In this document: piece after piece, positions 16,045 to 58,293 of the stretch
Layout of the letters: each line of letters starts with the position of its first letter
Numbering within the stretch: the stretch's first letter is position 1
NCBI RefSeq assembly: GCF_028622875.1
Contig: NZ_CP117709.1
Location: forward strand, 5,273,001-5,337,000
Direction: 5' to 3'
Length of the DNA stretch: 64,000 nt
From: Streptomyces sp. MMBL 11-1
Lineage (GTDB): Bacteria; Actinomycetota; Actinomycetes; Streptomycetales; Streptomycetaceae
Translations under genes and position numbers: made by a program
Notes under the pieces: model-generated
What the model was told of the DNA's origin: nothing
What the model saw: the letters and a program-made list of their open reading frames with translations, nothing else
The model's database searches: none

Positions 16045-16566
16045 CCCGCGCACCCGGACCCCTGACCCGCGCACCCGGGCCCCGTCCGCGAACGTGACCT
16101 CCTCGACCACCGCCCCCACCGCCGGCGCGGCGAACTGCTCGGCCGTTCGAGATCACTACACCTGGAGCCCTTGTGGACCAGTTTCCGGCGCTGCCGATCC
16201 CGGAGACGTCAAGCCGACGTCGTATCGCGCCCCCCCTGACAGCAAGGTCGAAATCGGGGCCTGTGCCGGGGCCGGTTCACGACGTCCGACGTGCGTTCGC
16301 CCGCCCTGCCCGGAACGCGGTCCGGCGAATCCGGAGCGTCATGGTGGAGTGGCGCGGCACGCGGCAGCACTTACGAAGGGTTATGGTGGAAACCCCCCCT
16401 CGGGCCGGTCCGTATCCCCCCCCCACGGACCGGCCCGTTTTTATGCGCCGACGTACGCGCCGACGTACGCCCCGCCGTCCGCCCCGCCGTCCGCTCCGGC
16501 GTCCGCCCCACCGTGCGGCCCCGGGCGCTCCCCTCCTCCTTGCGCGCGCGCCCCGTCGGGCCGACG
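16045..16566. other. 522-bp intergenic region holding a probable small RNA
   Basis: Directly after the stop of the preceding gene is a short direct repeat (CTGACCCGCGCACCCGG-type, two copies, 16041-16082). The region 16080-16340 contains nothing recognised. From about 16365 begins a structured RNA candidate ending in a strong hairpin with a T-run. The last 120 bases before the aldo/keto reductase stop are GTACGCCGAC-like repeats (about 16450-16510). Confidence 0.5.
16365..16441 (+). ncRNA. Candidate 6C small RNA
   Basis: The stretch contains two uninterrupted C-runs, 16393-16399 (7 C) and 16416-16424 (9 C). The second sits in the loop of a 12-bp perfect stem (GGGCCGGTCCGT at 16402-16413 with ACGGACCGGCCC at 16425-16436) followed directly by TTTTT. 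Upstream, GGGTT and AACCC can form a smaller hairpin around ATGGTGGA. Two hairpins with six or more cytosines are the defining features of the actinobacterial 6C RNA, a small RNA reported in Streptomyces to rise during sporulation. The boundaries are approximate. Confidence 0.68.
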
Positions 16567-37448: not shown

Positions 37449-37553
37449 GGTGTTTAAACCTCCTGAAAAAGATGAGCACTTGTCTTGTTCCATGTATTCC
37501 CAAGTCGCCTACCGACCAGTAAATACCGGGGGTAACCACTACCGGGAGGCGCA

Positions 37554-39107
37554 ATGAGGCGCACCAGCACCAGACTTCGAGGGCTCGGAAGCCTTCGCCT
37601 GCTCCGCTGTACGGTCGCGGCCACCGTCGCTCTCGCGGCCGCCGTCGGCGGTATGGCCGCCGCCGGACCCGCGGGCGCGACGGAGTCGGGTACCAGCTCT
37701 ATCGCATCCACCCCTCTCCCGCCCGCACTGGAAGCCGTCCGGGCCGCCGAGGCCACCCAGCTGTACGGGAGCCCCGCCGAGCGGCCGATGGGCGACCGCA
37801 GGACCGGACTGATCTCGCTCGGCGACAGCGAGATCTCCGGCGAGGGCGTCGGCACCTACGACCCCGGCACCAACGGGCCGGACAACTGGTGCCACCGCTC
37901 ACCGGACGCCGCCATCCACCGCACGGGCATCGCGGCGGACCTCACGTACAACGTCTCGTGTTCCGGCGCCCATACCGGAAACATCAGAATCGGCGGGAGC
38001 AAGCAGTACGCCGACGAGCTCGTGCAGAGCGACAGCCTCGCGATCAAGGCCCGCAACACCCGGATCAAGATGATCGTCCTGGTCGCCGGGGCCAACGACG
38101 ACCTCCAGTTCGGCCCCGTCATGACCGACTGCGTGGTCCGCTACATCAGCCTCCAGGGCCCCTGCGAGCCGAAGTACGCGAGCGGCTGGCAGGCCCGCGT
38201 CGACGCGCTGGTCCCCAAGGTCGAGCGGACCGTCCGCGACCTGCGCACCGTCATGACGGACGCCGGATACGCGAACAGCGACTACAAGCTCGTCCTGATG
38301 GGCTACCCGAGCCCGATCGGCCCGGACTTCCGCGACAACCCGAAGTTCCCCGGCAAGCTCGTCTGCGGCGGACTCGGCTACGACTCCGACACCGTCTGGG
38401 GCCGCAACACGGCCGTGCCCGCCTTCCAGGCCGGGATGCGCGAGGCAGCCACCGCCACCGGCGCCACCTACCTCGACAACTCCCGGCTCTTCCACGGCCA
38501 CGAGGTCTGCACCGAGAACGCCTGGGCGCGCGGGCTCTACATCGACCTGAGCAAGCCCGGCCTGCCCGACGAGAACTCCGTCCGGCAGTCCTTCCACCCC
38601 AACGCGGCCGGCCACCGGGCCTTCGCGTCCTGCCTCACCCAGCTGTACGACTCCGGGCTGCGCGAGGCGAGCTGCGCCGACCCGGCGAGCACCGGGGACC
38701 CGGTCCTGACGGGAGCGGCCTGGGACGACCTGTTCGCCCCGCTGAAGAACGAGGCGACCGGCACCTGTGTGGACGTGCCCGCCTCGGTCACCCGTAACGG
38801 CACGGAGATCGGCGGCTGGGACTGCCACGGCGGGCGCAACCAGAACTGGTGGTACGACGCGGGTACGCAGACGGCCCGCACCGCGCTCAGCCACGACCGC
38901 TGCCTGGACGTGCCGGGCGCGAAGTACGCCACCGGCGCCACGCTCGTCGTGTGGGACTGCTCGGGCGCGGCGAACCAGAAGTTCGTCCGGCAGGCGGGCA
39001 CCCTCCGCCCGGCCGCCGCGACGAACCTGTGTCTGACGCTGGCGGGGGCCAAGGACCCGCTCAAGCTCCGGACGTGCGACGGCGGCGCGAACCAGCGCTT
39101 CGTGTAA
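37554..39107 (+). CDS. Secreted GDSL/SGNH lipase with C-terminal ricin-type lectin domain
   Basis: A 517-residue exported protein. It has a signal peptide (to about residue 43), an SGNH hydrolase domain (about 80-375) with block I LISLGDSEISGEG (Ser nucleophile), VAGANDDLQF (block III Asn) and SFHPNAAGHRAF (block V Asp/His region), with several Cys pairs. A ricin-B-type beta-trefoil follows (about 395-517) with GTCVDVPA, DRCLDVPGAKYA, DCSGAANQKFV and QRFV/QNWW repeat units, predicted to bind carbohydrate. It probably hydrolyses an ester on a polysaccharide or lipid surface. Start ATG 37554 with GGGAGG upstream. It borders the biosynthetic cluster. Confidence 0.9.
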   Translation: MRRTSTRLRGLGSLRLLRCTVAATVALAAAVGGMAAAGPAGATESGTSSIASTPLPPALEAVRAAEATQLYGSPAERPMGDRRTGLISLGDSEISGEGVGTYDPGTNGPDNWCHRSPDAAIHRTGIAADLTYNVSCSGAHTGNIRIGGSKQYADELVQSDSLAIKARNTRIKMIVLVAGANDDLQFGPVMTDCVVRYISLQGPCEPKYASGWQARVDALVPKVERTVRDLRTVMTDAGYANSDYKLVLMGYPSPIGPDFRDNPKFPGKLVCGGLGYDSDTVWGRNTAVPAFQAGMREAATATGATYLDNSRLFHGHEVCTENAWARGLYIDLSKPGLPDENSVRQSFHPNAAGHRAFASCLTQLYDSGLREASCADPASTGDPVLTGAAWDDLFAPLKNEATGTCVDVPASVTRNGTEIGGWDCHGGRNQNWWYDAGTQTARTALSHDRCLDVPGAKYATGATLVVWDCSGAANQKFVRQAGTLRPAAATNLCLTLAGAKDPLKLRTCDGGANQRFV

Positions 39108-39166: not shown

Positions 39167-41752
39167 TCACGTCTGCCGGGCGAGTGCCTCGGACAGCGCC
39201 CCCAGCGTCGGCGTCAGATACAGCTGCCGCAGCGGTATGCCGGGCAGCCCGCGCTCCCGGGCGAGCGTGCCGATCCGGATCGCGTACAACGAATTGCCGC
39301 CCAGGTCCCAGAAGTCGTCGTCCGGGCCGACCGACGCGACGCCCAGGACCTCCTGCCAGATCGAGGCGAGGGCGGCGGCCGGGGCCTCGGGAGCTCCGGG
39401 TGCCGCAGGTGCGGGGGCCGGGGCCCGGCGCGCTCCGGGCGTGGGCAGGCGGGCCGCGTCCAGCTTGCCGTTCGCGGTGAGGGGGAGGGCCGACAGTACG
39501 GTCACCGTCGCGGGCACCATGTGCGGGGGAAGCAGCCGGGCGGCCCGCTCCCGTACGGGTCCGGACTCCTCGCCCGTCCCCGGGGCGGGGACCACGTACG
39601 CGTCGATCCGCACGGCCGCCGCGTCCCCGCCCTCACCGCCGGTCACGGTGACCGCCGCCGCCGACACCGCCGGGTCCTCCAGCAGCACGTGCCGGATCTC
39701 GCCCGGCTCGATCCGGAAGCCCCGCACCTTCACCTGGTCGTCGATCCGGCCCAGGTGCTCCAGCGTCCCGTCGGGCAGCAGCCGCCCCAGATCGCCGCTG
39801 CGGTAGAGCCGCCCGGCCGGGTCCAGGACGTCCGGGACGAAGCGTTCGGCGGTCAGGGCGGGCCGGTGCAGATAGCCGAGCGCCACGCCCGCCCCGCCCA
39901 CATGGATCTCCCCGGGCGCACCCGGCGGCACCGGCCGCCCGTGCGGGTCCAGGACCCGGACCGACCAGCCCGGCAGGGGCCGGCCCACCGACCGGGACCC
40001 GGCGAGCGCCTCGCGGCGCGTCACCGTGGCCGCCGTGACATGCACCGTGGTCTCGGTGATCCCGTACATGTTGACCAGGCGGCAGCGGTCCTCCGGGTGC
40101 CGGTCGAACCAGCCCAGCAGCGGACGGGCGTCCAGCGGCTCGCCTCCCAGCACCACCAGCCGCAGGGCGGGCAGCGTGCCGCCCGTCCGGTCGGCCGCCA
40201 CGAGCTGGGTGAACGCCGACGGGGTCTGGCTCAGCACGCTCACCCGCTCCCGTGCCAGCAGGGCGTGGAAGTCCTCCGGCGAGCGCGAGGTCCAGTGGTC
40301 CACGACGACCAGCCGCCCGCCCGTCAGCAGCGCGCCCCAGATCTCCCACACCGAGAAGTCGAACGCCGCCGAGTGGAAGCACGTCCAGGTGTCGTCGGGG
40401 GAGAGGCCGAAGTCGTCGTGGACGGAGCCGACCAGGGCCGTGACACCGGTGTGCGGGACGAGGACCCCCTTGGGGCGGCCGGTCGAACCCGAGGTGTGGA
40501 TGACGTACGCGGGACCGGTGGCCGGGCCCCGGGGCGTGGCGGGGCGCGGCGGGTGGCCGGTGAGGACGGCCGGGTCCCGGACCGTCAGCCGGACCCCCGC
40601 GTCCCGCGCGGTGCGCTCCCGGCGGTCCGCCGGATGCTCCGGGTCCAGCGGTACGTAGACCGCGTCCGCCTTCAGCACGGCGAGCATCGCCGCCACCAGG
40701 TCGGCTCCGCGAGGCAGACAGAGGCCCACGAGATCCCCGGGGCGGACGCCGTGGGCGTACAGCCCGTCGGCCAACGCCTCGGCACGGTCGTCGAGTTCGG
40801 CGTACGAGAGGGTGGTGGACCCCACGGTGAGTGCGGGCGAGCGCGGGCGGGCGGCGGCCTGAGCGGCGAAGGCCTCGTCGACGCGGCGGAGGGGCCCGGG
40901 GCCCGGCGCCTTCTGTGGTGCTCCCAGGGCCAGTTGCCGCGCGCACTCGGCCTCGCTCAGCGGATTCAGTGCCGAGAGCGGTGTGTCGGGCGGGCATGCC
41001 GCCAACGCCGCGTGTACCCGCTCCACATGACCGCGCGGCACGGGGAGACCGTCGGGGCCGGCCGGCAGCGTGGCCGGCCCGCCCTCCTCGTCCGCCACCA
41101 GGCCGAGGACGGGCGGATCGTCGCCCTCCGCCGGGACGACCGGCCCGGTGGCGAGCAGGTCCGCGACCGTACGGCCGGGCGACAGGTCCGCCGTGAACAC
41201 CGCGTACCCGTCGAGCGCCCCCAGCGCGTACGGCGGCCGGCCCCGGGCCGGCGCGGGGACGGCTACGCGCACCGAGGCCGCACCCTCGTACCGCCCGACG
41301 GTGACCGCGAGCGCCGAGGCGAGCCGTCGGGTCTCCCCGGCCACGCTCAGGTCCAGGGGGAGCGACTCGTGGAGCGGCGTCACGGCGTCCGGGGCCAGGC
41401 CGCCCCGCAGCACCCGGGCGACGAGCCGCAACGAGCGGGCGTCCAGCGCGGACCCGTCGGCGGTCAGCACGAGATCCGGGCCGGGGCCGGGGTCCGCTCC
41501 CGCCCCGTCCGCGTACCGCAGCAGCACCGCCCGCAGCCGGTGGCCGGACGCGACCGGGCGGCGGGCCTCGGCCGCGCGCCGCCGGGCGGCGGCGCCGGAC
41601 CCGGCCGGAGCGGGCACGGTCTCCGTCCACAGCCGGAGACGGCGGCCCCCGGGCCACCACAGCTCCGCCGCCGCCGTGAGGGCGGCGGCGAGCGCGGTGT
41701 CGGCGGTGTCCGGCGGCAGGCGGACCGTCAGGGTGTGATGGGCGGGCGGCAC
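39167..41752 (-). CDS. NRPS module: degenerate condensation remnant, adenylation, PCP
   Basis: An 861-residue protein; GTG 41752 follows AAGGAG. Residues 1-285 resemble a shortened C domain. The HHxxxDG motif is replaced by LVLTADGS, so it should be inactive, although the usual C-A linker (PLSALNPLSEAE) is kept. The A domain (about 290-760) has HTSGSTGRPKGV, AFDFSVWEIWG, NMYGITETTVH, YRSGDL and NGKLD. The ten-residue specificity code reads D-F-W-S-V-G-M-V-H-K, close to the threonine code DFWNIGMVHK. The PCP (about 785-861) has FWDLGGNSL. There is no thioesterase. It is the last gene of the operon, 37 bases after the SDR. Confidence 0.9.
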   Translation of the reverse strand: MPPAHHTLTVRLPPDTADTALAAALTAAAELWWPGGRRLRLWTETVPAPAGSGAAARRRAAEARRPVASGHRLRAVLLRYADGAGADPGPGPDLVLTADGSALDARSLRLVARVLRGGLAPDAVTPLHESLPLDLSVAGETRRLASALAVTVGRYEGAASVRVAVPAPARGRPPYALGALDGYAVFTADLSPGRTVADLLATGPVVPAEGDDPPVLGLVADEEGGPATLPAGPDGLPVPRGHVERVHAALAACPPDTPLSALNPLSEAECARQLALGAPQKAPGPGPLRRVDEAFAAQAAARPRSPALTVGSTTLSYAELDDRAEALADGLYAHGVRPGDLVGLCLPRGADLVAAMLAVLKADAVYVPLDPEHPADRRERTARDAGVRLTVRDPAVLTGHPPRPATPRGPATGPAYVIHTSGSTGRPKGVLVPHTGVTALVGSVHDDFGLSPDDTWTCFHSAAFDFSVWEIWGALLTGGRLVVVDHWTSRSPEDFHALLARERVSVLSQTPSAFTQLVAADRTGGTLPALRLVVLGGEPLDARPLLGWFDRHPEDRCRLVNMYGITETTVHVTAATVTRREALAGSRSVGRPLPGWSVRVLDPHGRPVPPGAPGEIHVGGAGVALGYLHRPALTAERFVPDVLDPAGRLYRSGDLGRLLPDGTLEHLGRIDDQVKVRGFRIEPGEIRHVLLEDPAVSAAAVTVTGGEGGDAAAVRIDAYVVPAPGTGEESGPVRERAARLLPPHMVPATVTVLSALPLTANGKLDAARLPTPGARRAPAPAPAAPGAPEAPAAALASIWQEVLGVASVGPDDDFWDLGGNSLYAIRIGTLARERGLPGIPLRQLYLTPTLGALSEALARQT

Positions 41753-41789
41753 GTACGCGACTCCTTGTCCACGGAAGGGGAAACGGCGG

Positions 41790-42653
41790 TCAGCGGGCGG
41801 AGAACCCGCCGTCCACGGTGACCACGCTGCCGGTCACCTGCCGGGACTCCTCCGAGGCCAGCCAGAGCACCGCGTTCGCCACATCGTCCGGCTCCACCAG
41901 AGCGTTCATCGGCTGATCCCGGACGAACGCGGCCTCGTGCTCCGCGACCGGCACCTCCAGCGAGCGGGCGATCTCCGCCAGCATCCGGCCCTCCATCGCC
42001 TCGTCGTCCCGCACCGAGCCCGGACACACCGCGTTGACCCGAACCTTGCGGGGCGCGTAGTCCAGGGCCACCGCTCTCGTCAGGCCGACCAGCCCGTGCT
42101 TGGCCGCGACGTACCCCGCGAAGTGCCGGTAGCCCACCAGGCCCGCCGTCGAGGCGATGTTGACGATCGAACCGGACCCCTGAGCGGCCATCCGGCCGCC
42201 GACCGCGCGGATCGCCCGCCACGCACCGCCCAGATCCACATCGATCATCAGCTGCCACTCCGCCTCGGTGATCTCGTGCGCCGGGCGGCCCGAAGGGGCG
42301 GCGATGCCCGCGTTGTTGACCAGGACGTCGATCCGCCCGAAGCGCTCCTCGGCCGCCTCCGCCGCCGACTCCAGCGCCGCCAGGTCCCGGACGTCGGCCT
42401 GCCGGGTCAGCACGGCGGACCCCGCCTCGCGGCAGAGCCGCCCGGTGTGCGCGAGCTGCGAGGCCGAACCGAGCGGATACGGCACCCCGGGCAGCTCGCC
42501 CGCCACGTCCAGCAGGACCAGGTCCGCGCCCTCGCGGGCGAAGGCCAGCGCACAGGCCCGGCCGAGACCGCGCGCCGCTCCCGTGATCAGCGCCGTCCGC
42601 CCGGCGAGCCGAGCTCCGCCGCCCGCGGCCCCCGGGCCGCCGTCGCCCGTCAC
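41790..42653 (-). CDS. SDR oxidoreductase, mycofactocin-coupled type
   Basis: A 287-residue Rossmann-fold dehydrogenase: cofactor motif TALITGAARGLGRA, LVNNAGIAAPSG, catalytic Ser in VNIASTAG and YxxxK in YVAAKHGL. Between strands 2 and 3 it has an insert, VPYPLGSASQLAHTGRLCREAGS, followed by QADVRD. That insert marks SDRs of the mycofactocin-coupled group, in which NAD is held tightly and electrons pass to mycofactocin. No mycofactocin genes are in the window. Start GTG 42653 overlaps the thioesterase stop (GTGA). It probably oxidises or reduces an intermediate or the final product of the cluster. Confidence 0.88.
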   Translation of the reverse strand: MTGDGGPGAAGGGARLAGRTALITGAARGLGRACALAFAREGADLVLLDVAGELPGVPYPLGSASQLAHTGRLCREAGSAVLTRQADVRDLAALESAAEAAEERFGRIDVLVNNAGIAAPSGRPAHEITEAEWQLMIDVDLGGAWRAIRAVGGRMAAQGSGSIVNIASTAGLVGYRHFAGYVAAKHGLVGLTRAVALDYAPRKVRVNAVCPGSVRDDEAMEGRMLAEIARSLEVPVAEHEAAFVRDQPMNALVEPDDVANAVLWLASEESRQVTGSVVTVDGGFSAR

Positions 42654-43384
42654 CGGCCCCGCTCCGCGCGCACCTCGGCGGCCACCAGCTCCAGCAGCTC
42701 GCCCGGCCGCTCGGTGAGATACATGTGCCCGCCGGCCGGCTCGGCCACCGTCAGCTTCCCCGACGTCGCCCGGCCCCACTCGGCCGCCTCCGCCGCTGTG
42801 ACCAGCGTGTCCTCCCGCCCCCGGACGGAGATCACCGGCACACCCAACGGCCGGTCCGTGGACGGGACATACGTCTCGTGGAGCCGGACGTCCGCCCGGA
42901 GCGTCGGCAGCAGCAGCTCCCGCATCTCCGGGTGGGCCAGCGCCGGGTGGTCGTACCCGGCGAACGCCCGGACCCGGGCGGCGAACTCCTCGTCCGGCAG
43001 TCCGTCCGCCCGGTCCGTGCGCGGCGTCCAGGGGCCGGGGGCGCCGCTGACGACGAGCGCCGCCAGGCGGCCCGGCCCGTCCGACCGCTCGATCCGGTGC
43101 GCCAGTTCGTACGCGAGGACCGCGCCCATGCTGTGCCCGAACAGCACGACCGGGCCGCCGTCCCCGTCCCCGCCCCCCAGGGCCGCCGTCACCTGCGCGT
43201 ACGCGTCGTCGACGGCCGGGGCCGCCGAGGTGTGGGCGGGCTCGGGGAACCGCTTCTCGCGGCCCGGCAGCGACACCGGGAGGATCCGCAGACCCTCCGG
43301 GGCGAGTCCCTGCCACGGCGTGAAGAAGGAGGGGCCCGCCCCGGCGAAGGGCAGGCAGATGAGGACGGTCTCTACGTCGGCCAC
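42650..43384 (-). CDS. Type II thioesterase of the PKS/NRPS cluster
   Basis: A 244-residue alpha/beta hydrolase of the external editing thioesterase family: LICLPFAGAGPSFF at the start, nucleophile LFGHSMGAVLAYE, and C-terminal His in AGGHMYLTERPGEL. TEII enzymes remove wrong acyl groups from carrier proteins. Because no integrated TE domain exists in this cluster, it could also release the final chain. GTG 43384 follows AGGA. It is separated from the aminopeptidase gene by 98 bases that contain short direct repeats. Confidence 0.93.
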   Translation of the reverse strand: MADVETVLICLPFAGAGPSFFTPWQGLAPEGLRILPVSLPGREKRFPEPAHTSAAPAVDDAYAQVTAALGGGDGDGGPVVLFGHSMGAVLAYELAHRIERSDGPGRLAALVVSGAPGPWTPRTDRADGLPDEEFAARVRAFAGYDHPALAHPEMRELLLPTLRADVRLHETYVPSTDRPLGVPVISVRGREDTLVTAAEAAEWGRATSGKLTVAEPAGGHMYLTERPGELLELVAAEVRAERGR

Positions 43385-43397
43385 GGTCGGTCCTGTT

Positions 43398-43445
43398 CTC
43401 TTCTGTTCCGTACTTCTCTGTTCCGTAACTTCTCTGTCCGTACTT
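43398..43445. repeat. Short direct repeats between aminopeptidase and thioesterase genes
   Basis: Three imperfect copies of TTCTCTGTTCCGTACT-like units (about 15-16 bp) fill the 98-bp gap in an otherwise tightly overlapping operon. The sequence has lower GC than the flanking genes. Confidence 0.7.
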
Positions 43446-43482
43446 CCGGGAGCCGCGCCCGTCGGTGAGGGCGTGCGGTCCG

Positions 43483-44784
43483 TCAGTCCCCGACCATGAT
43501 CGTGGTGAGGATCGCGGCGAGATAGCCCGGGTCGCGCACCCCGCACAGCTCGCGCGCCGAGTGCATCGACAGGCCGGGCACCCCGACGTCCACCGTGGTG
43601 ACGCCGAGCCGCGCCGCCGTGAGCGGGCCGATCGACGTACCGCAGGGCATCGCGTTGTTGGAGACGAACGGCTGCCAGGGCGCCCCGGACCGCTCGGCCG
43701 CCGCGGTGAGCACCGCGATGCCGGTGGAGTCGGTGGCGTACCGCTGGTTGACGTTCACCTTGACCGTCGGGCCGCCGTTGGGGAGCGGGCAATGGTCGGG
43801 GTCGTGCCGTTCCGCGTAGTTGGGGTGCACCGCGTGCGCCATGTCGGCGGAGACGCAGAACGCGCCCGCGAGCGCCCGCGCCCAGTCCTCGTCGCTGCCG
43901 CCGCGCGCCGACACGGACCGCGACAGGATCCGCTCCAGCAGTGGGCTCTGCGCACCCGTCTCGGAACCGCTGCCGACCTCCTCGTGGTCGAAAGCGGCCA
44001 GCACCGGTACGAAGGAGGGCTGCGTGGCCCCCGTCGCCGCGTCCACCAGCGCGGTCACCCCGGCGTGCACCGACACCTGGTTGTCCAGCCGGGGCGCCAC
44101 CACGAACTCCCGGTCCACACCCAGATATCCGGGCGGCTGGACGTCGTGCAGCATCAGGTCCCAGCCCAGCACGTCCGCCGGGTCCTCCCCGGCGTCCGAC
44201 GCGACCCGGCGCAGCAGCTCACCCTCCCGCGGGTCGCCCAGCGCCCAGATCGGCGCGATGTGCCGCTGCCGGTCCAGGACCACGCCCTCGTTCACCGTAC
44301 GGTCCAGGTGAATGGCCAACTGCGGGACCCGGAGCAGGGGTTCGTCGATCTGCACGAGCCGGCTGCGCGGGGTGCCGTCGGGGCCGCGCAGAGCGAGGCG
44401 GCCGGAGATGCCCAGATCCCGGTCGAGCCAGGTGTTCAGCGGGACTCCGCCGTAGATCTCCACCCCGATCTGCCGCCACCCCGAAGTGCCGGTGTCCGGC
44501 GCGGGTTTGATCCGCAGGTTCGGCGAGTCGGTGTGGGTGCCGACGATCCGGAACGGGGTGTGGGCGGGCGCGCCCTCGGGCACGTACCAGGCGATCAGCG
44601 CACCGGCACGGCTGACGAAGCAGCCGCCGGTCGCCCCCGTCCAGTCGTCCGTGCCGCGCAGTTCGCGGAACCCGGCCTTCTCCAGACGCTGGGCCGCGCT
44701 GGCCACCACGTGGTAGGGGGAAGGGCTGGCGGCGATGAAGGAGAGCAGGTCGTCGGTGTGGCTGCGGTGGGGGGCCGGAGTCAT
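43483..44784 (-). CDS. M18 family (aspartyl-type) aminopeptidase inside the biosynthetic operon
   Basis: A 433-residue dinuclear-zinc aminopeptidase of the M18 family, removing acidic or other N-terminal residues from peptides. Metal and catalytic regions are visible: VGTHTDSPNLRIKP (first His/Asp), REFVVAPRLDNQ (bridging Asp), AAFDHEEVGSGSETGA (catalytic Glu and Glu ligand), VSADMAHAVHPNY and PGLSMHSARE (last His). The length fits the family. Its ATG overlaps the stop of the aminotransferase/monooxygenase NRPS gene (ATGA), so it is made in step with the synthetase. If the product inhibits aminopeptidases, this may be a resistant target copy; trimming the product is the alternative. Confidence 0.93.
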   Translation of the reverse strand: MTPAPHRSHTDDLLSFIAASPSPYHVVASAAQRLEKAGFRELRGTDDWTGATGGCFVSRAGALIAWYVPEGAPAHTPFRIVGTHTDSPNLRIKPAPDTGTSGWRQIGVEIYGGVPLNTWLDRDLGISGRLALRGPDGTPRSRLVQIDEPLLRVPQLAIHLDRTVNEGVVLDRQRHIAPIWALGDPREGELLRRVASDAGEDPADVLGWDLMLHDVQPPGYLGVDREFVVAPRLDNQVSVHAGVTALVDAATGATQPSFVPVLAAFDHEEVGSGSETGAQSPLLERILSRSVSARGGSDEDWARALAGAFCVSADMAHAVHPNYAERHDPDHCPLPNGGPTVKVNVNQRYATDSTGIAVLTAAAERSGAPWQPFVSNNAMPCGTSIGPLTAARLGVTTVDVGVPGLSMHSARELCGVRDPGYLAAILTTIMVGD

Positions 44785-47700
44785 ACGGCGTCCGCCTTTC
44801 CGGTGTTCGGCAGTGACTGGGAGGGTGACGGTCCGCCGGGCTGGTCGGGCCCGGCGCTGGCGTCCCCGGCGGAGCCCCCGGAGCCTCGGCCCGAGGGCCC
44901 CGGCGAGGGGCGCTCCCCGAGGAGTTCCCGCACCGGCCGGTCGGGCCGGGCGCTGAACTCCGCGAGCAGGTCGGTGTACGACGAGAGAAGGTCGTGGGCG
45001 GTCGTGTGGTCCCACAGGTCGGTGGAGAATTCCAGGAACGTTCCATAACCCTTGGCGGGGTCCCGGCGCGGCGCAAGCCCGAAGCACAGTTCGCTGCGGG
45101 AAAGCGGCGGTGCCAGATCGGTCACCTCGACCCGGAGCCCGGGGATCTCGATGTCCGTGTCGACGGAGTTCTGGAACGCCAGGACGTGCGGCACCCGGTC
45201 GGGGACGCTGTCGGCGCCCGCGTCCCGCATCGCCTGCATGATGCGCGCGGTGGGCAGGACATGCGCCATGGCCCCGAGCGCGCCGGTGCCCGTACGGACG
45301 GCCAGCTCCGCGCAGGTCTCGTCGAGATTGGCTGGATCCAGTCGTACGCGGACCATCACCGCGGTGGACGTCATCGCCACGAGCGACTCCGAGGCGGTGC
45401 CCTCGCGGTGGGCGTACGGGACGCTCAGCAAGGTGTCCTCCTCCCCCGACAGCCGGGTCAGGAACACCCCGAGCGCCGCCGCAGCGACCGCGAACGGGGT
45501 GGTGCGCCGCTCGGCCGCCAGCTTCTCCACCGCCGCCCGCACGGCACCCGTCGCGACCCCGCGCACCGTGTCCCCGCGCCCGCTCAGCTTCCGCGGACGC
45601 GGCCGGTCCGTCGGTACGGGGACGGCGGACGGCACCCCGTCCAGGTAGCGGGCGCAGAACGCGGCCCGTTCCGCCTCCGCGCCGGGATCGTGCTGCTCCC
45701 GCTGCCACCGGGCGTACCCGGGCGCCTGCATCGCCGGTTCGGGCAGGCCGTGCGGGACGCCCGCGGCCGCCGCCGTGTACAGCGCGGCGAGCTCCGCGAG
45801 CAGCACGGACAGCGACCAGCCGTCGGCGCAGATGTGGTGCAGGACGAACATCAGCTCCCAGCGGTCCTCCTCGACCCGCAGCAGCCGCGTCCGGGGCAGC
45901 AGGGGCCGCCCCAGGCCGAAGGGGGCCGCCGCGTCCGCCCGGCACAGGGCGTCCGCCCGGGGCCGACGCTCGCCGGCGGGCAGCCCGGTCAGATCCTCCA
46001 CCGGCAGTGCCACCGGCTCCGCCGCCAGCACCTCCTGCCACCACGGCCCGTCCGGCGCCCCCTCCGGCGTGAACCTGGTCCGCAGCCCGTCGTGCCGGGC
46101 GACCAGCTCGGAGACGGCGGACCGCAGGGCCGCCGGGTCCAGCGCCCCGGTGAACGTGATGCGCGTCGGCACGTTCCACACCGCGGGGTCGGGCATGGCG
46201 TGGTGCCCGGCGATCATCCGGGCCTGCTGGTCGCTGACGGGGGCGCGGTCGACGACCGCCGCGACGTCCGGCTCCGGACCGCCGGCCAGCTGCCCGGTCA
46301 TGGCCCGCAGCGTGGAATCGGCGAAGAAGTCCGCCAGCGGGTAGTCGACGCCGAGCGTGTCCCGGACCCGGTTCACGAGGCGGATCGCGGCGATGGAATT
46401 GCCGCCCAGGTCGAAGAAGTTGGCGTCGGCGGGGAATCCGCGCCGGCCGAGGACGGACTCCCAGACCTCGCGCAGGAGCGCGGCGGTGTCGGAGGCCGTG
46501 CGGGCGTCCGGCTCCGTCGTGTCCGGTCCGGGGGCGCCTGCCGGGTCCGACCCGGCGGCGCCCGCCGTGTACGGTCCCGCCGTCGCGCTCGCTGCGTCCG
46601 CTGTGTCCGCCGCGTCTGCTCCGGCCGCCGTGCCCGCTTCCGCCGTGCGCTCCTCGGCCGGGCTCGACATCGCCTCCGGTATCGCCTCCGACATCGCCTC
46701 CAACCGCGCGTCCAGCTCCGCGAGATACCCCTCCGCCGTCGCCGCGTCGAACAGGTCCGCGTCGTAGCGCAGCCGCAGCCGCAGGCTCCCGTCCCCGACC
46801 TGGGTGGCCATCAGCGCGAACTCCAGCGGCGACGACTCCGTCCCGGCCGCCACGCCCTCCGCCCGCAGGCCGGGCAGGTCGATTCCGGCCAGCGCCGCCC
46901 GGTCCAGATCGACCGAAACGGTCACCAGCGGGCGCGGATTCCCCGGGTCCGGATGGACGGCCGCCATGAGCGCGTCCAGGTCCACCCCGCTGTGCTCGTC
47001 CGCCGCGAACAGCGCCCGGCCGGTGGCCCGTACGGCCTCCGGCGAGGAGGTCGCGTCGGTGGCGGACAGCGGCAGCGGCAGCAGTGCCACATGGAAGCCG
47101 ACCGTGTCCGCCGTCGAGGGCGGCCGCCGCCCGAACGTCGTGCCCAGCAGGAACGCGTCCTGCCCCGACCGCCGCCGCAGCACCAGCTGCCAGGCCGTGC
47201 ACAGCGTGGCGAACAGGGTCACGCCCTGCTGCCCGCTCCACTCCCGCAGCCGGCCGGCCCGCTCCCGGCCCACGGTCCGGGCCACCGCCCCGCCGCGCCC
47301 CGCCACCCGGCGGCCGCGCGGCCGGTCCGTCGGCAGGGCCAGTACCGGCGGCCGGTCGCCCAGCAACGCGCGCCACCAGGCCAGGTCGGCCGCGTCGCCC
47401 GCGGGTTCGGGGGCCCCGACGGTCGTCCCGGCGGGCCGCTCGAAGGCCGGCGGGCGTCCGGCGCGGGCCGCCGTGTACAGCTCCCGGAGGTCCCCGGCGA
47501 TCAGCGCCGCCGAGTGCGCGTCCGTGATGATGTGGTGCGTCCCGAGGACCAGGACGTGGTCGTCCTCCGCCAGCCGCAGCAGCCGGGGAGTGAACAGCGG
47601 CCCCGCGGCCAGGTCGTAGGCCCGGCCGCTCTCCTCGGCGAGCAGCGCCCCGATCGCCCGCTCGGCGTCCTGGCCCTGGGCGTCCGTCACCGTCAGGGGA

Positions 47701-50618: not shown

Positions 50619-53600
50619 CGCGGCCCCGCCCCGGTGCGGTCGGTCAGCAGCGCGACGGCCTCGGAGAGCTGGTTGAGCATCGCGGCCTGCGTCTCGGCCA
50701 GTTGACGTATCTGCTCCGCGAGAGCGGCGACCTCGGCCCGGGTGGCGTGGACGGGCTCGTCGGTGACCGACGTGGGTGTGGGCGTGACCGGCGTGGGCGC
50801 GTGGGTGACCGGCGGGGGCGTGGGGGCAGGCGCCGGCTCCACGGACACGGATGATGCGGACGACACGGACGACACGGACGACACGGATGACGCGGATGAC
50901 GCGGATGACGCGGATATCGCCGGAGTTCTCCGTCCGGCTATCAGCGCGGCAGTCAGCCGGGGTGTGCCCGCCTCCTCCAGGATCTCCCGCATGCTGATCT
51001 CCGTGCCGAACTCGGCCTCCAACTGCCTCACCATCCCGATCAGCTGGAGCGAGTCCGCACCGAGGCCGACGAAGGTGCGGTCGGCGGCCACCTCGTCGGG
51101 CCGGTGCCCGAGATGGCGCGCGGTCAGCTCCAGCACCCTGTCCAGTACGGCCTGTTCGGTCATGCGGTCCTCCGTGGAACGTGGGAGCGGGGTGAGGGGC
51201 GTGAGCGGGGTGAGGGGGGTGAGCGGGGGCGGGTACGGGGCCGGGCCCCTCCAGTGCGAGCGGCGCTGGAAGGGGTACGCGGGCAGCCGGACGCGCCGGC
51301 CGCCGCAGCCGTCGAGCAGCGCGGCCCAGTCCACCCCGGCCCCCGCGCAGTGCAGCGCGGCCACCGCCCGCTCCCACCGCCGCGTCGGTACGCAGACCGC
51401 GTCCGGCAGCGCCCGGCGGACCATCCCCGTCAGCACGGCGGACGGGCCCAGCTCCAGCAGCAGCGGGGTCCCGGGCCGCGGCGCACCCTCCTCGGGCGCC
51501 CCGGCCAGCCGGTCCAGAACGGCGGCGAAGTCGGCCGTGCGGCGGGCCTGCGCGACCAGGTGGGCGGCGTCCGGCCGCCACCCGGCGGGGCGGACCGTGC
51601 CGTCCATGCCGTCGACGAACTCCGTGTGCAAGGGGTGGAGTTTGACCTTGTCGGCCAGCACCTGGAAGTCCTCCAGCGCCGGATCGAGCAGCGCCGTGTG
51701 GAACGCCCGGTCCACCGCCAGCACCTCGTACGGCTCACCTCGCGCCGCCAGCAGCGCCCGTGCCGCGTCCACCGCCCCCGGCGGGCCGCCCAGCACGTGG
51801 TGGGCGGTGCCGTTGACCACGGCGAGCTCCAGCCCGGGGACGGCGGCGAGCAGCTCCCGCACCCGGTCCCGGGGGACGAACGCGGAGACCATCGCGCCCG
51901 GGGCCGCCCGCTCCAGCATCAGACGCCCGCGCCCGCACACCAGCCGCATCGCGTCCTCGGTCTCCAGGGCCCCGGCCACGCACAGCGCCGCGTACGCGCC
52001 GACGCTGTGCCCGGCGACCCGGGCCGGGGTGACCCCGAGCCGTTCCCACAGCCGGGCCTGGGCGATCTGGAGGGCGAACAGGGCGGGCTGCGCGAAGGCG
52101 GTGTCCCACCGCTCGGGGCCCTGCCCGCCGACGATCCGGTCCAGGAAGTCGTCCCGCCCGGTCTCCTCCGCGTACACCCGGGCGCAGGCGTCGAGCGTCT
52201 CGGCCACCACCGGGAAGCGCGCGGCGAGTTCCGCGCCCATGCCCGGGTGCCCGCCGCCCTGGCCGCTGAAGAGGAACACCGGCCGCCTCTCCCGTACGCC
52301 GTCGGCCACTCCGGTCGTGTATGCCTCGCCCTCCGGGGTCCCGGAGAGAAACGCGTCGAGACCGGCCACCGGGTCCGCGGCGGTGACGACCAGCCGGTGC
52401 GGCAGGAGCCGCCGACCGAGCGCTGTGGTGGTCAGCAGATCGGCGGGGGAGTGGGGCGGCCCCTCCGCCAGGTGGTCCCGCAGGGCGGCGGCGTACGCAC
52501 GCAGCGCGTCCCCGTCCGCGGCCGAGAGCGGCAGCAGGGCGGGCACGAGGGCGCCGTCGTGCGCCGGCGCCGCGTGCGCGGCCTCCGGCGCCTGTTCCAG
52601 GATCACATGAGCGTTCGTACCGCCCATGCCGATGGAGTGCACACCGGCTCGCCGCACCCCCGCCAGCGGCCAGGCGCTCTCCCGTACCGGCAGCAGGAAC
52701 GGGCTCTCGTCCACCGCCAGCGCCGGGTTGGGCCGGGAGAAGTTCACCAGCGGCGGGACCACCCCGTGCCGCAGCACCTCGACGGCCTTGATCAGTCCCG
52801 CGAGCCCCGAGGCGCTGTCCAGGTGGCCGATGGCCGGTTTCGTCGAGCCGAGCGCGCAGAAGCCGGTCCGGTCGGTATGCGCGCGGAACGCCTCGGTGAG
52901 GGCGGCGAACTCGATCGGGTCGCCCTTCAGCGTGCCCGTGCCGTGCGCCTCCACGTACCCGATCGACGCCGCGTCCACGTCCGCCGCGCGCAGCGCCCCG
53001 AGCACCGCGTCCCGCTGACCGGCGACCCCGGGGGCGGCGAACCCGCCTCTGCCCATGCCGTCGCCGGTCCCTTTGTCCGAGCCGTCGTTGGTGACCGCCG
53101 AGCCCAGGATCACCGCGTGCACGGTGTCGCCGTCGGCCAGCGCCCGCGCCAGCGGTTTGAGGAGGACGGCGGCGGCCCCGTTCCCGCCGACCGTGCCGTC
53201 CGCGTCCGCGTCGAAGGCCCGGACCGTGCCGGTGGGGGAGAGGGTGGAGCCCTTGACCGGGACCTGGCCGGTGACACCGGGCAGATGCAGGGCGGCGGAG
53301 CCCACCAGCATCAGGTCCGCGTCCCCGGCGCGCAGCGCCTGGCAGGCCAGATGGACCGAGACGAGAGCGCTGGAACAGGCCGTCGACACGGTCAGCGCGG
53401 GCCCGGTCAGACCGAGCCGGAAGGCGGCCCGGGCCGCGATGAAGTCGGGGTAGTTGCCGACCTGGACCTGCTTGGCGGTCATCCAGTCGCCCGAGCCGGC
53501 CTCCGCCGCCAGGTTCTCCGCCAGATAGCTGTGCAGCGAGTACAGGCGGTATCCGGAGCTCCCGTACACCCCGATCCGTACCGAGTCGCCGTCGCCGCCC

Positions 53601-53941
53601 GCGTAACGCTCCTCGCCGCCCGCGTAGCCCCCGTCCTCCAGGGCGTGGAAGCAGCACTCCAGGAACAGCCGCTGCTGCGGATCGGTCAGCTCCGCCTCCC
53701 GCCCGCTCATCCCGAAGAACCCGGCGTCGAAGCCGTCCACGCCCGTCAGGAGCGCGCTCGCCCCGCCGAACCCCGGCCGCTCGTACTCCGCCGCGGGGAC
53801 GCCCGCCGCGGCGAACTCGGCCCGGGTGAAGCGGCGTACGTGGCCGGTCCCCGCCCGGATGTCGCGCCAGTAGGCCGTGGGGGTGTCAGCCCCCGGAAAC
53901 CTCAGCGCCGTTCCGATCACCGCGATCCGGTCGTCCCTCAA
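50615..53941 (-). CDS. Type I PKS module KS-AT-ACP
   Basis: A 1108-residue protein. The KS (about 3-430) has STACSSALVS (active Cys), VEAHGTGTLKGD and SIGHLDSASG. The AT (about 550-890) has FLFSGQGG, AGHSVGAYAA and RAFHT, the last pointing to malonyl-CoA. The ACP (about 925-1000) has FVGLGADSLQL. A Ser/Val-rich low-complexity linker and a helical C-terminus (about 1073-1108, AALAEQIRQLAETQAAMLNQL) follow, the latter a likely docking helix for the next protein. There is no loading domain, KR or DH, so the beta-keto group is left for the aminotransferase downstream. TTG 53941 with AAAGGAAG upstream, overlapping the MFS gene by 56 bp. Confidence 0.9.
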   Translation of the reverse strand: MRDDRIAVIGTALRFPGADTPTAYWRDIRAGTGHVRRFTRAEFAAAGVPAAEYERPGFGGASALLTGVDGFDAGFFGMSGREAELTDPQQRLFLECCFHALEDGGYAGGEERYAGGDGDSVRIGVYGSSGYRLYSLHSYLAENLAAEAGSGDWMTAKQVQVGNYPDFIAARAAFRLGLTGPALTVSTACSSALVSVHLACQALRAGDADLMLVGSAALHLPGVTGQVPVKGSTLSPTGTVRAFDADADGTVGGNGAAAVLLKPLARALADGDTVHAVILGSAVTNDGSDKGTGDGMGRGGFAAPGVAGQRDAVLGALRAADVDAASIGYVEAHGTGTLKGDPIEFAALTEAFRAHTDRTGFCALGSTKPAIGHLDSASGLAGLIKAVEVLRHGVVPPLVNFSRPNPALAVDESPFLLPVRESAWPLAGVRRAGVHSIGMGGTNAHVILEQAPEAAHAAPAHDGALVPALLPLSAADGDALRAYAAALRDHLAEGPPHSPADLLTTTALGRRLLPHRLVVTAADPVAGLDAFLSGTPEGEAYTTGVADGVRERRPVFLFSGQGGGHPGMGAELAARFPVVAETLDACARVYAEETGRDDFLDRIVGGQGPERWDTAFAQPALFALQIAQARLWERLGVTPARVAGHSVGAYAALCVAGALETEDAMRLVCGRGRLMLERAAPGAMVSAFVPRDRVRELLAAVPGLELAVVNGTAHHVLGGPPGAVDAARALLAARGEPYEVLAVDRAFHTALLDPALEDFQVLADKVKLHPLHTEFVDGMDGTVRPAGWRPDAAHLVAQARRTADFAAVLDRLAGAPEEGAPRPGTPLLLELGPSAVLTGMVRRALPDAVCVPTRRWERAVAALHCAGAGVDWAALLDGCGGRRVRLPAYPFQRRSHWRGPAPYPPPLTPLTPLTPLTPLPRSTEDRMTEQAVLDRVLELTARHLGHRPDEVAADRTFVGLGADSLQLIGMVRQLEAEFGTEISMREILEEAGTPRLTAALIAGRRTPAISASSASSASSVSSVSSVSSASSVSVEPAPAPTPPPVTHAPTPVTPTPTSVTDEPVHATRAEVAALAEQIRQLAETQAAMLNQLSEAVALLTDRTGAGPR
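50859..50925 (-). repeat. 9-bp microsatellite-like repeats in the PKS linker
   Basis: About seven consecutive GAYGACRCG-like 9-bp units encode SSASSVSSVS-type sequence between the ACP and the docking helix. A second set encoding (PLT)n lies at about 51185-51235 between AT and ACP. Both keep the reading frame. Confidence 0.75.
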
Positions 53942-55406
53942 CGGCTTCTTCCTTTCGCTGCCCCGTACGCCCCGTACGCCCCGCCCGGCGCACTCCCGCC
54001 ACCCTCAGCAGGAACACCACGGCGACGACGATGGCGGCGCCGTGGGACCAGCCCACCACGGCCAGCGGGGAGAATTGGTCGAGAGCCGCCGCCACAAGGA
54101 TCATGCCGACGCCGAAGCCGAGGTTCTCGAAAGTGGCCGAAAGACCGAAGGCATGGCCACGCAAGGTGGCCGGAAGTGTCTGGAGGTGCGAGGTGTACGC
54201 GACCTCGGTGAGGCCGTCCGCGGCCCCCGCGATCAGCGCGATCACCGCCGTCACGACCAGCGGGAACCCGGCGAACGCGGCGATGAACGCGGCCGACATC
54301 ACCACCGTGCCATAGCCGAATCCGAGCGCCCCCACGGAGCGTCCGGTGCGCTGCGCGTACCGCTGGATCACCTGCTGGGCCCCGATGTTGCCGAGCGCCC
54401 ACACGCACCAGAACGCGCTGACGAACACCGCGGGATTCGACGCGTCGAGCGAGGTGGAATAGATCGGCAGCGCCGCGTTGTGGGACGAGGAACCGAACGC
54501 GTCGACCCCGCGCAGGGCCACCATCAGACCCATCCCGGGGGCGGCGGCGAGCGCGAGGAAGGCCACGGGCCGCCAGCGCCTGCCGCCCTTCGCGGCCGAG
54601 GCGCCCTTCCCGGCCGAGGCGTCCTTCCCGGCCCGGGAGCCCCCGGAGCCCTGGGACTCCCCGGAGCCTTCGCGGCCCCCGGAGCCCTGGGAGCCTTCGG
54701 GGGCCGATCCGTCGGCTTCCTCGCCGGCGGCACCCCTGGCTCCCGCTTCCTTGGCTCCCGCTCCCTTGCCGCCGGCGATCGGCAGCAGGGCCACCGTCAC
54801 CGCGCAGGCGATGAACGTCGCCATGTCGACAAGGAAGGCCGCGGTGTACCCGACGAGGGAGACGACCACGCCCGCCGAGGCGAACCCCGCCACCATGGCC
54901 AGCGAACGGCCGGTGATCGAGAGGGAGTTCGCCCACGCCCTGCGGTCCTCCCCGACCATCTCCGGGATCGAACTGCGCAACGCCACCATGAACAGGGTCC
55001 CGCACGCCCCGATCACCACCGAGACGGCCATCAGCGCCCCGGTCAGCAGACCGTCCGGCGCCAGGACGAGCACCAGCATCACGCCGCCCTGCCCGACATT
55101 CGCCCACAGCATGATGCTCTTCGCGCTGAAACGGGCGAGCAGACCGCCCACGACGAGACCGGCGACGAATCCGGAGGCGAGCCGCACCGCCATGAACAGG
55201 CCCATGGCCAGCGCCCGTCCCGTCGTCTCGTAGACGAAGAGATTGAGCGCCACCATATTCAGGAATGTGCCGTAGGAAGACACCGCGTATCCGGCGACGA
55301 GGAATCGAAAACGGCGCTCGGAGACCGCGGTGTCCCGGCCCTTCTGGGCGTCGCCGTCCGCCTCGTCCGCCTTCGGCCCGTCCGCGCTGTTGATTCCAGA
55401 TGTCAC
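53886..55406 (-). CDS. MFS exporter of the cluster
   Basis: A protein of 506 residues if started at GTG 55406; an ATG at 55472 would give 528 residues but leaves only 4 bp to the divergent regulator start. It has about twelve hydrophobic helices in two halves. RFRFLVAGYAVSSYGTFLNMVALNLFVYETTGRA starts helix 1 and LLARFSAKSIMLW is the cytosolic loop 2-3 motif of enterobactin-exporter-like MFS proteins. The central loop is extended by a 60-residue Gly/Ser/Ala/Lys-rich segment, an unusual feature. It probably exports the product and gives resistance. The PKS gene begins inside its 3' end. Confidence 0.85.
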   Translation of the reverse strand: MTSGINSADGPKADEADGDAQKGRDTAVSERRFRFLVAGYAVSSYGTFLNMVALNLFVYETTGRALAMGLFMAVRLASGFVAGLVVGGLLARFSAKSIMLWANVGQGGVMLVLVLAPDGLLTGALMAVSVVIGACGTLFMVALRSSIPEMVGEDRRAWANSLSITGRSLAMVAGFASAGVVVSLVGYTAAFLVDMATFIACAVTVALLPIAGGKGAGAKEAGARGAAGEEADGSAPEGSQGSGGREGSGESQGSGGSRAGKDASAGKGASAAKGGRRWRPVAFLALAAAPGMGLMVALRGVDAFGSSSHNAALPIYSTSLDASNPAVFVSAFWCVWALGNIGAQQVIQRYAQRTGRSVGALGFGYGTVVMSAAFIAAFAGFPLVVTAVIALIAGAADGLTEVAYTSHLQTLPATLRGHAFGLSATFENLGFGVGMILVAAALDQFSPLAVVGWSHGAAIVVAVVFLLRVAGVRRAGRTGRTGQRKEEAVEGRPDRGDRNGAEVSGG

Positions 55407-55476
55407 CGGGACATACTCGTCGAGCGCGGGTGCCGGACGGGGGACTCCCGTTTGCACAAAGGTAATCTGCATCCTT
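55407..55476. promoter_or_regulatory. Divergent promoter region of the biosynthetic cluster
   Basis: With the MFS start at 55406 and the regulator start at 55477 a 70-bp region remains for both promoters. It contains an AAAGGTAATCTGC patch of lower GC just before the regulator start. No clear inverted repeat was found. The regulator may be translated from a leaderless transcript, since no well-placed ribosome binding site precedes its GTG. Confidence 0.4.
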
Positions 55477-56478
55477 GTGAAGGACGATCATTCCCCCTCA
55501 CCGGTATGTGATTGCCGTGAATCACCCTCGGACCGGTCGATACCGGAACAACCCTGCGAGGCGGCGCTCGCGGCCTATCGCCGTGCGCTGACGGAGGGCG
55601 GCCTCCCGGCCGGCGCCGCGCCGTCCTGCCTGCTGTCCCTGCACCTGATGGTGGCCGACCACGATTCACCCGGCTACCTCATCCCCGTACCGCCGGAGAC
55701 CGCCTCGTTCGCCGCCCTCGCCCCGATCGAGGAGGCGATCGTCGAGCAGCGCCGAACCCTGCGTTCCGCCCGCGCCACCCTCGCCGCCTTCGAGGGCCTC
55801 TACGCCGAGATGCACCGACAGGAACGCCCCGTCCTCACCCGGCTCTCCGGCACGGCCGTCATCGGCAAGGCCCTGGACGCCGGGGTCAGCGGCTGCCGCG
55901 CCGAGGTCCGCACCGCCCACCCCGGCGGCGGACGCCCCGCCCACGTCCTGGAGGAGTCCCTGCCGCGCGATCTGGGCAACCTGCGCCGCGGCATCCGGCA
56001 GCGCACCCTCTACCAGCACACCGTCCGCTCGGACCGCACCACGCTCGCCTACATCGAGCAGGTGACCGCCGAGGGCGCCGAGATCAGGACCCTGGCCGAG
56101 GTCGCGGACCGGTTCATCGTCTTCGACCGGGACCTCGCCCTCATCCCGTTCTCCGACGAGCCGCACACCGCGCTGCGCGTCCAGCACCCGTCGCTGGTCC
56201 GCTTCCTGGTCCGCCACTTCGACGAGGCGTGGTCACGCGCGGTCCCGGTCCGCCCCGAACGCGCGCCGCTGCGCACCCCCGTCGTCACCTCCGACCTCCA
56301 GCGCGCCATCCTCCAGGCCGTCGTCAACGGCGAGACGGACGCCGCCATCGCCCGCCGGATCGGCATGAGCCGCCGCAGCGTCGCCGAGCACATGCGCAAG
56401 GTCTCCGAGCAACTGGGCAGCAACAGCCGGGCGCAGCTGGGGTATCTGGTCGCGACCTCGGGTCTGCTGGACGGCTGA
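55477..56478 (+). CDS. Pathway regulator with C-terminal LuxR-type HTH
   Basis: A 333-residue protein. The C-terminal 65 residues are a LuxR/NarL-type HTH (QRAILQAVVNGETDAAIARRIGMSRRSVAEHMRKVSEQLG). The middle part, including RQRTLYQHTVRSDRTTLAYIEQVTAEGAEIRTLAEVADRFIVFDRDLALIPF, is typical of the Streptomyces regulators that combine a TrmB/PLD-like sensor with a LuxR HTH. The N-terminal segment has a helix AALAAYRRAL and a Cys pair (CDC) at the extreme start. It is divergent from the operon and is its probable switch. The ligand is unknown. A strong terminator follows. Confidence 0.85.
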   Translation: MKDDHSPSPVCDCRESPSDRSIPEQPCEAALAAYRRALTEGGLPAGAAPSCLLSLHLMVADHDSPGYLIPVPPETASFAALAPIEEAIVEQRRTLRSARATLAAFEGLYAEMHRQERPVLTRLSGTAVIGKALDAGVSGCRAEVRTAHPGGGRPAHVLEESLPRDLGNLRRGIRQRTLYQHTVRSDRTTLAYIEQVTAEGAEIRTLAEVADRFIVFDRDLALIPFSDEPHTALRVQHPSLVRFLVRHFDEAWSRAVPVRPERAPLRTPVVTSDLQRAILQAVVNGETDAAIARRIGMSRRSVAEHMRKVSEQLGSNSRAQLGYLVATSGLLDG

Positions 56479-56537: not shown

Positions 56538-58205
<1,668 letters not shown>

Positions 58206-58293
58206 GACGGCCATTCCTCACTCGGCGACAGCGGCTGACCTCCCTCGGGCAGCGCATCCACCAGGGTAGAGCGCCGCCTCCGGGAGGATCCTG

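Follow-up and report, generated by a model that had tools for sequence, protein, structure and literature searches.

Organisation of the locus and its relatives in Streptomyces

The 64,000-nucleotide stretch analysed here (the window; positions 5,273,001 to 5,337,000 of contig NZ_CP117709.1) comes from the 8.5 Mb assembly of Streptomyces sp. MMBL 11-1 and carries, at window positions 39167-56478, a compact cluster that probably makes a small peptide with the warhead of known aminopeptidase-blocking drugs, and whose extra aminopeptidase probably protects the maker. All eight genes that an earlier note on this DNA had placed there were found, with the domains, coordinates and order it gave. Briefly, a divergent LuxR/GerE-type regulator on the forward strand (55330..56478; Pfam GerE, 1.6e-6; a maximal open reading frame whose start codon is unsettled) lies next to a row of genes on the reverse strand. 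The row begins with a major facilitator superfamily (MFS) exporter (53886..55472; Pfam MFS_1, 6.5e-22), which the regulator adjoins in many related loci as well, and continues with a polyketide synthase (PKS) protein (50615..53941, start codon unsettled) composed of a ketosynthase (KS, ~53932-52394), an acyltransferase (AT, ~52279-51377) and an acyl carrier protein (ACP, ~51142-50942). The following synthase of 1945 residues (44781..50618) joins an aminotransferase (AMT, 50276-49206) and a luciferase-like monooxygenase (LLM, 48962-48045) to two condensation domains (C1, 47933-46686; C2, 46250-44922) that enclose a peptidyl carrier protein (PCP, 46478-46293). Behind it stand an M18 aminopeptidase, the second copy in this genome and the proposed self-protection gene (43483..44769; best family E-value 2.5e-169), a type II thioesterase (42650..43384; Pfam Thioesterase, 1.4e-31; likely start GTG at 43384, unproven), a short-chain dehydrogenase/reductase (SDR, 41790..42653) in which the YxxxK and GxxxGxG motifs were both found, and an A-PCP protein (39167..41752) with a putative degenerate C domain (41752-40898), an adenylation (A) domain (~40870-39464) and a PCP (~39373-39182). 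Neighbouring genes overlap by 56, 4 and 4 nt or are separated by 11 and 37 nt, with a gap of 98 nt ahead of the thioesterase gene if it starts at 43384; such tight spacing is what an operon would predict. The best family E-values, lowest in strength for the regulator and the exporter and highest for the M18 protein, together with the gene order kept in other genomes, indicate that the arrangement is not due to chance. No TTA codon occurs in the eight reading frames.

Using the AMT-LLM part of the synthase as the query, we identified AMT-LLM pairs in 39 of 199 Streptomyces genomes, the window's genome included. Full-length matches were obtained in 16 of the 199, and 23 more have both an LLM match and an AMT match of 1e-190 or lower; the two lie on one contig in 21 of these 23 and on separate contigs of fragmented assemblies in the other two (G113 and G135). 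Such pairs are common in Streptomyces, and named cluster-bearing relatives include S. globisporus, S. parvus and S. anulatus. The locus is flanked by ordinary genes, among them fumarase C (36033-37493) and a GDSL lipase (37554-39107) on one side and a class I fumarase (56538-58214) on the other. Wherever the sequence covers both borders, clusters of its kind (named type 1) have the class I fumarase at one end and the lipase at the other. Loci L009-L015 were used as DNA only. Three loci (type 1b; L154, L155 and L160) hold the same genes at another chromosomal place, and eight (type 2) share the core and the M18 gene, with a different thioesterase and A-PCP and without the SDR. In the AMT and LLM trees, the 24 M18-bearing clusters and L062 form one clade (support 100/99 and 100/100).

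The clusters named type 3 (L016 and L062-L073) have an A-domain match between the C domains and lack the M18 gene, with the Pfam check made on the L062 and L064 synthases. Members other than L062 resemble the window in the MFS exporter, the KS-AT-ACP and the AMT-LLM (identity 68-71% for AMT, 62-65% for LLM and 50-56% for KS-AT), but differ by a C-A-PCP-C order with an A domain of its own (Pfam, L064) and by having no M18 or SDR match. This two-protein line, KS-AT-ACP plus AMT-LLM-C-A-PCP-C with an MFS exporter and without M18, is common in Streptomyces and may be the bestatin-like core proper. Separately, L074, L075 and L076 hold reading frames of about 3,400-3,600 residues with KS-AT, LLM and nonribosomal peptide synthetase (NRPS) matches and no aminotransferase match, which suggests alpha-hydroxylated acyl peptides without the amine. 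In the type 2 cluster L057, an argininosuccinate-synthase-like reading frame, an odd NRPS partner, follows the A-PCP gene (L057:9553-11076).

Probable assembly of the head group and the peptide part

The KS (TACSS and HGTGT), the AT (GHSVG) and the ACP (serine) keep their active-site motifs, and the AT carries an AFH motif, which marks the malonyl type. No ketoreductase, dehydratase or enoylreductase domain was matched by Pfam in the PKS protein, in agreement with the earlier note. The best solved relative of the AMT is the mycosubtilin beta-aminotransferase of MycA (4e-125; the next family, glutamate-1-semialdehyde aminomutase, reaches 3e-54), and that of the LLM is PuwE (PDB 6KET, 3e-93; next chain 3e-27). 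The locus shows three features of a microginin- or puwainaphycin-type starter assembly, with a non-reducing KS-AT-ACP, a MycA-type class III aminotransferase after the ACP and a PuwE-type LLM next to it. The called genes at 29420-62851, the part of the genome searched, include no recognised fatty-acyl ligase; the sole AMP-binding match there is the amino-acid A domain. Based on the likeness to MycA and PuwE and on the KS and AT motifs, condensation of an acyl group with malonyl, beta-amination and alpha-hydroxylation form the best reading, and the product probably carries a 3-amino-2-hydroxyacyl head. The proposal of this head in the earlier note is thereby supported, and neither the AMT nor the LLM grouped with enzymes of clearly different chemistry, the first of the outcomes named there as contradicting it. 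A short Ser-rich tandem repeat is present in the linker after the ACP of the PKS protein (~50840-50915).

For the peptide part, the synthase keeps the C1 (HHIITDAHS) and C2 (HHICADGWS) motifs and the PCP serine, and no A domain was matched within its 1945 residues. The N-terminal residues 1-285 of the A-PCP protein resemble a degenerate condensation domain, with TADGSALD where a C domain has HHxxxDG. Their predicted fold (11 rows; mean pLDDT 84.4, pTM 0.72) was compared by Foldseek, and among the best 50 of 305 matches the top four come from teixobactin synthetases (condensation-adenylation structures, E 4.4e-9 to 3.6e-8). Most of the remainder, judged by title or general knowledge, are domains of the condensation, epimerisation or X kind or NRPS proteins that contain them. 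A sequence-profile comparison of this N terminus with C domains is weak (probability 5%), and the fold comparison is the better evidence that the protein, as modelled, looks like one starting with a degenerate C domain.

The pocket code of the single A domain, read from its motifs, is DFWSVGMVHK, close to the Thr code DFWNIGMVHK. Both the 278 and the A5 contexts could be read in 8 of 10 homologues, and the code positions there agree with the window; L154 and L155 differ at letters beside the code positions and nowhere else in the contexts compared. The motif finder missed the A5 context in L056 and L160, and the A domain of L160, whose 299 and 322-331 contexts were also seen, has Asn at 278, the canonical Thr letter. 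CytC1 ranks high among the solved A domains, as does 5N9W, a threonine-activating domain. On this code, the A domain reads as Thr-type, and there is a reasonably good chance that the product contains a Thr-type residue; the pairing of two PCPs with one A domain would allow for one such residue or two. The NRPS reading of the earlier note is thus refined to one Thr-type A domain, a first module without an A domain, and an A-PCP protein with a degenerate C domain.

The SDR was found in all 12 clusters with the Thr-type A-PCP (the window, L012, L049, L050, L052, L056, L116, L154, L155, L160, L162 and L163), L116 being counted although its contig ends after the start of the A-PCP gene. It is absent from four same-site clusters without an intact A-PCP (L053, L054, L055 and L164) and from all eight type 2 clusters. 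This distribution suggests that the SDR follows the Thr tail and not the head. In L164, a remnant of the A-PCP gene with stop codons persists at 16038-16451, the SDR and the A-PCP being lost and the core intact. A mycofactocin-dependent SDR was considered and dropped, as the TIGR03971 score of 291.9 is a near miss of the cut-off of 300; searches for the mycofactocin radical SAM maturase in the genome gave four weak matches, none above the family cut-off.

Two alternatives concern this chemistry. The AMT or the LLM might act on another position or substrate, so that no 3-amino-2-hydroxy head would arise, and the parts of the literature consulted hold no experiment on an enzyme of this Streptomyces AMT-LLM family; MycA and PuwE are nevertheless far nearer to the two domains than the next solved families are, and both domains come after a non-reducing PKS module, which makes this alternative improbable. 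It is similarly improbable that the SDR oxidises the alpha-hydroxyl to give an alpha-keto-beta-amino amide, the type to which poststatin and eurystatin belong. Its intact YxxxK and Rossmann motifs and its conservation would suit such a step, but its presence in every Thr-tail cluster and its absence from the four tail-less and eight type 2 clusters, which retain AMT-LLM, tie it to the tail.

The second M18 aminopeptidase and its retention

The earlier note had recorded the M18 gene in this locus correctly and had missed its meaning. The window's genome holds two M18 genes. We counted copies in a panel of 42 genomes of our own choice, and all 14 with M18-bearing clusters have two copies. Among the 12 with other AMT-LLM types, 11 have one copy and one (G024) has two; among the 16 without AMT-LLM matches, 15 have one copy and one (G005) has two. 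A single copy is therefore found in 26 of the 28 panel genomes without an M18-bearing cluster. In 392 genomes searched, 43 cluster-type copies (E<=1e-195) were identified in 42 genomes, and their surroundings were assigned to type 1 (12), type 1b (3), type 2 (8), the type 1 site with the M18 gene alone (14) and other sites with the M18 gene alone (6). Eight of the 12 type 1 copies stand in complete clusters (one split over two contigs), and four in clusters without the SDR and an intact A-PCP. The 23 copies in clusters of types 1, 1b and 2 lie at different sites, which points to linkage across lineages.

A tree of 59 M18 proteins, from which housekeeping copies without an assigned locus were left out, separates 44 cluster-type from 15 housekeeping rows, each clade with 100/100 support; orphan copies of the type 1 site branch at three separate places within or next to type 1. 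Eight positions with catalytic, metal-ligand or pocket roles, which we assigned from general knowledge of the M18 family and the alignment, are identical in all 15 housekeeping and all 44 cluster-type rows, the pocket lysine being kept, so that the active site of the cluster M18 is, as judged from its residues, intact. Thirteen fixed differences distinguish the two groups, and two of them (L228 and M310) are next to metal ligands.

Fourteen copies occupy the type 1 site with no synthase matched beside them, and they allow the fate of the locus to be followed; one (L140) is cut by a contig end, leaving 13 that were judged. Both flanking genes are present at 10 of the 14 sites, the fumarase alone at three (L139, L143 and L150) and the lipase alone at L140. 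Six sites (L141, L142 and L145-L148) keep the LuxR regulator, the MFS exporter and the M18 gene, L139 keeps the regulator and the M18 gene, and six further sites show the M18 gene alone. No AMT-LLM match at E<=1e-100 exists in 11 of the 14 genomes, and G075, G100 and G166 hold a type 3 pair elsewhere. The housekeeping M18 is also present in all 20 genomes with orphan copies, including all 14 of the type 1 site. The orphan genes are open and intact at the 13 sites, and omega values of 0.10-0.17 in seven type 1-site orphan pairs indicate purifying selection in the pairs tested, which we chose ourselves. For comparison, six type 1 pairs gave 0.07-0.15, five housekeeping pairs 0.08-0.16, two type 2 pairs 0.21-0.28 and three other-site pairs 0.21-0.37.

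Upstream of the M18 gene, a scar of the synthase 3' coding end scores above all 520 approximately dinucleotide-preserving shuffles (best 41.0 bits) in 8 of the 13 orphans, L140 having been left out for too little sequence. The scores are 100 bits in L114, 90 in L138, 61 in L146, 60 in L149, 54 in L139, 51 in L147, 44 in L150 and 42 in L144, and the C-terminal end of the synthase protein is matched as well in L139 (last 25 residues) and L149 (last 16). No scar was detected in the 15 housekeeping regions (best 31.0) or the six other orphan regions (best 32.8). The scars indicate that the synthase was deleted and the M18 gene kept in most of these genomes, a natural decay series in which the synthase is lost first and the putative protection gene last. 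The six orphan copies at other sites were rejected as scars of the same locus, given the missing scar, the different context (L115, the only one scanned with Pfam) and the higher omega of 0.21-0.37. In L115 (8631-13535) the M18 gene stands beside an AMP-binding enzyme and an IclR regulator, and flanking genes of similar size occur in L151, L157 and L158.

Proposed product and protection, and competing explanations

The sequences establish the domains, motifs and nearest relatives, the M18 copy number and linkage and, where a scar persists, the keeping of M18 once the synthase had gone. On this basis we propose a pathway in which the starter, the product, the order of steps, the role of the SDR, the protection and the target are all inferred. 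The KS-AT-ACP would extend an acyl starter derived from the cell by malonyl, the AMT would convert the 3-keto group to a 3-amine on the carrier protein, and the LLM would then hydroxylate C2. One or two residues would be added by C1-PCP-C2 and A-PCP; the sole A domain, of Thr type, would choose them and would need to charge the A-less PCP in trans. The SDR may tailor the Thr-linked part, the type II thioesterase may aid release or proofreading, and the MFS protein would export the product. The M18 paralogue would shield the producer, most likely by being a version of the inhibited enzyme that the product does not affect. Taken as a whole, the explanation, in which the locus carries its own protection and makes a short peptide that combines a 3-amino-2-hydroxyacyl head with a Thr-type residue, has in our judgement about an even chance of being right.

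The divergent, cluster-linked second M18 copy, with an intact active site and outliving the synthase (six times together with exporter and regulator), has the look of self-protection. From these genomic patterns it is likely that the M18 protein serves protection of some sort, as target copy or degrader, and the chances are balanced that it is specifically an insensitive copy of the inhibited enzyme. A duplicated target as self-resistance is exemplified by the methionine aminopeptidase of the fumagillin clusters, where, as in the window, a second, divergent aminopeptidase copy lies inside the cluster; the window's copy is of the M18 family and its resistance role is putative. If the M18 protein is a target copy, the product would inhibit M18-type aminopeptidases, and an M18-like enzyme would be the likely target. 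The retained copy gives a testable target, and the cluster points to both the product type and the likely target. A bolder and rather doubtful extension is that the products of these clusters would be the first natural product family directed against the M18 (aspartyl-type) aminopeptidase, the side chain of their beta-amino-alpha-hydroxy head fitting its pocket, and that the M18 paralogue would act both as the resistant copy and as a marker for producers and former producers across Streptomyces.

Several observations weigh against this explanation. An A domain is missing from the first NRPS module, and 4 of the 12 clusters that occupy this site have, in addition, neither the SDR nor an intact A-PCP. 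The type 3 AMT-LLM clusters manage without M18, so that such a head need not require it. Bestatin and amastatin are poor inhibitors of mammalian aspartyl aminopeptidase, and a plain Leu- or Phe-like head would accordingly not fit an M18 target. Two ligand-adjacent differences among 13 are weakly more than expected by chance. In the scar test, L141 and L143 tie with the best shuffle, and 3 of the 13 orphans (L142, L145 and L148) show nothing above background.

Other roles for the M18 protein were weighed against that of an insensitive target copy. The main competitor, to which we give a minor share of the probability, is that it protects by trimming or hydrolysing the peptide; all catalytic residues checked are intact, and the gene persists where the synthase is gone, as expected of a detoxifying enzyme. 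Against this, aminopeptidases cleave a beta-amino-alpha-hydroxy N terminus poorly, and a paralogue of an enzyme that is single-copy in nearly all panel genomes without an M18-bearing cluster has the classic look of a target copy. Retention under purifying selection would look alike if the protein had been taken over for ordinary peptide breakdown, its link to the synthase being historical, but 6 of the 14 orphan sites hold regulator, exporter and M18 where neither synthase nor tail is matched, a pattern more in keeping with a resistance unit, and every orphan-bearing genome has its housekeeping copy already; we regard this takeover as having a small chance. The central place of the gene in the operon, 11 nt behind the synthase gene, would suit a maturation step in which the enzyme takes a protecting residue off the N terminus of an inactive precursor. 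This role is very unlikely, given that the gene is intact at 13 synthase-less sites (14 with the contig-cut one), where the substrate would be missing, and that none of the genes scanned was recognised as one that attaches such a protecting residue.

Bestatin, amastatin and related aminopeptidase inhibitors come from Streptomyces, S. olivoreticuli ATCC 31159 being the bestatin producer, and have the same type of head as predicted here, and the locus offers one enzyme logic for bestatin-type heads in this genus; the Thr-type residue predicted for the window differs from the Leu of bestatin. The puwainaphycin PuwE system of Cylindrospermum alatosporum, which makes a 3-amino-2-hydroxy-acyl lipopeptide, likewise has a PKS module, a class III aminotransferase and an LLM followed by NRPS. 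It differs in being cyanobacterial, in loading by a fatty-acyl ligase and in its long cyclic peptide, whereas in the window no ligase was found, the proteins are separate, the first module lacks an A domain and an M18 gene is present. As far as the part consulted describes them, the microginin (mic) clusters build a beta-amino-alpha-hydroxy acyl head on a short peptide by KS-AT-ACP and aminotransferase (PMC12250027). Their loading of fatty acids through micA/micB and their two to six complete NRPS modules were not seen in the window.

In the portion available of a paper from 2013, Table 2 lists the S. griseus protein UniProt G0PR31 as PLP1-Luc-C-HxxPF-CP-C with the prediction 'Mal-Thr' (PMC3870968). 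This entry shares the domain order of the window and, as a table entry only, notes no product or M18; we count its 'Mal-Thr' listing in favour of a Thr-type residue. The claim of the earlier note that no described Streptomyces cluster has this exact order was therefore too strong, the order having been printed in 2013 for G0PR31 (PMC3870968), and of its overall interpretation the head group is supported and the novelty of the order is not. Among the matches listed for titles and abstract starts of the open-access literature, subscription papers being mostly uncovered, there was no description of a bestatin or amastatin cluster or of this type of Streptomyces cluster, and direct phrases on bestatin or amastatin biosynthesis returned no open-access paper. 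At the border of the locus, the GDSL lipase carries a ricin-type lectin domain and adjoins the A-PCP end in many relatives.

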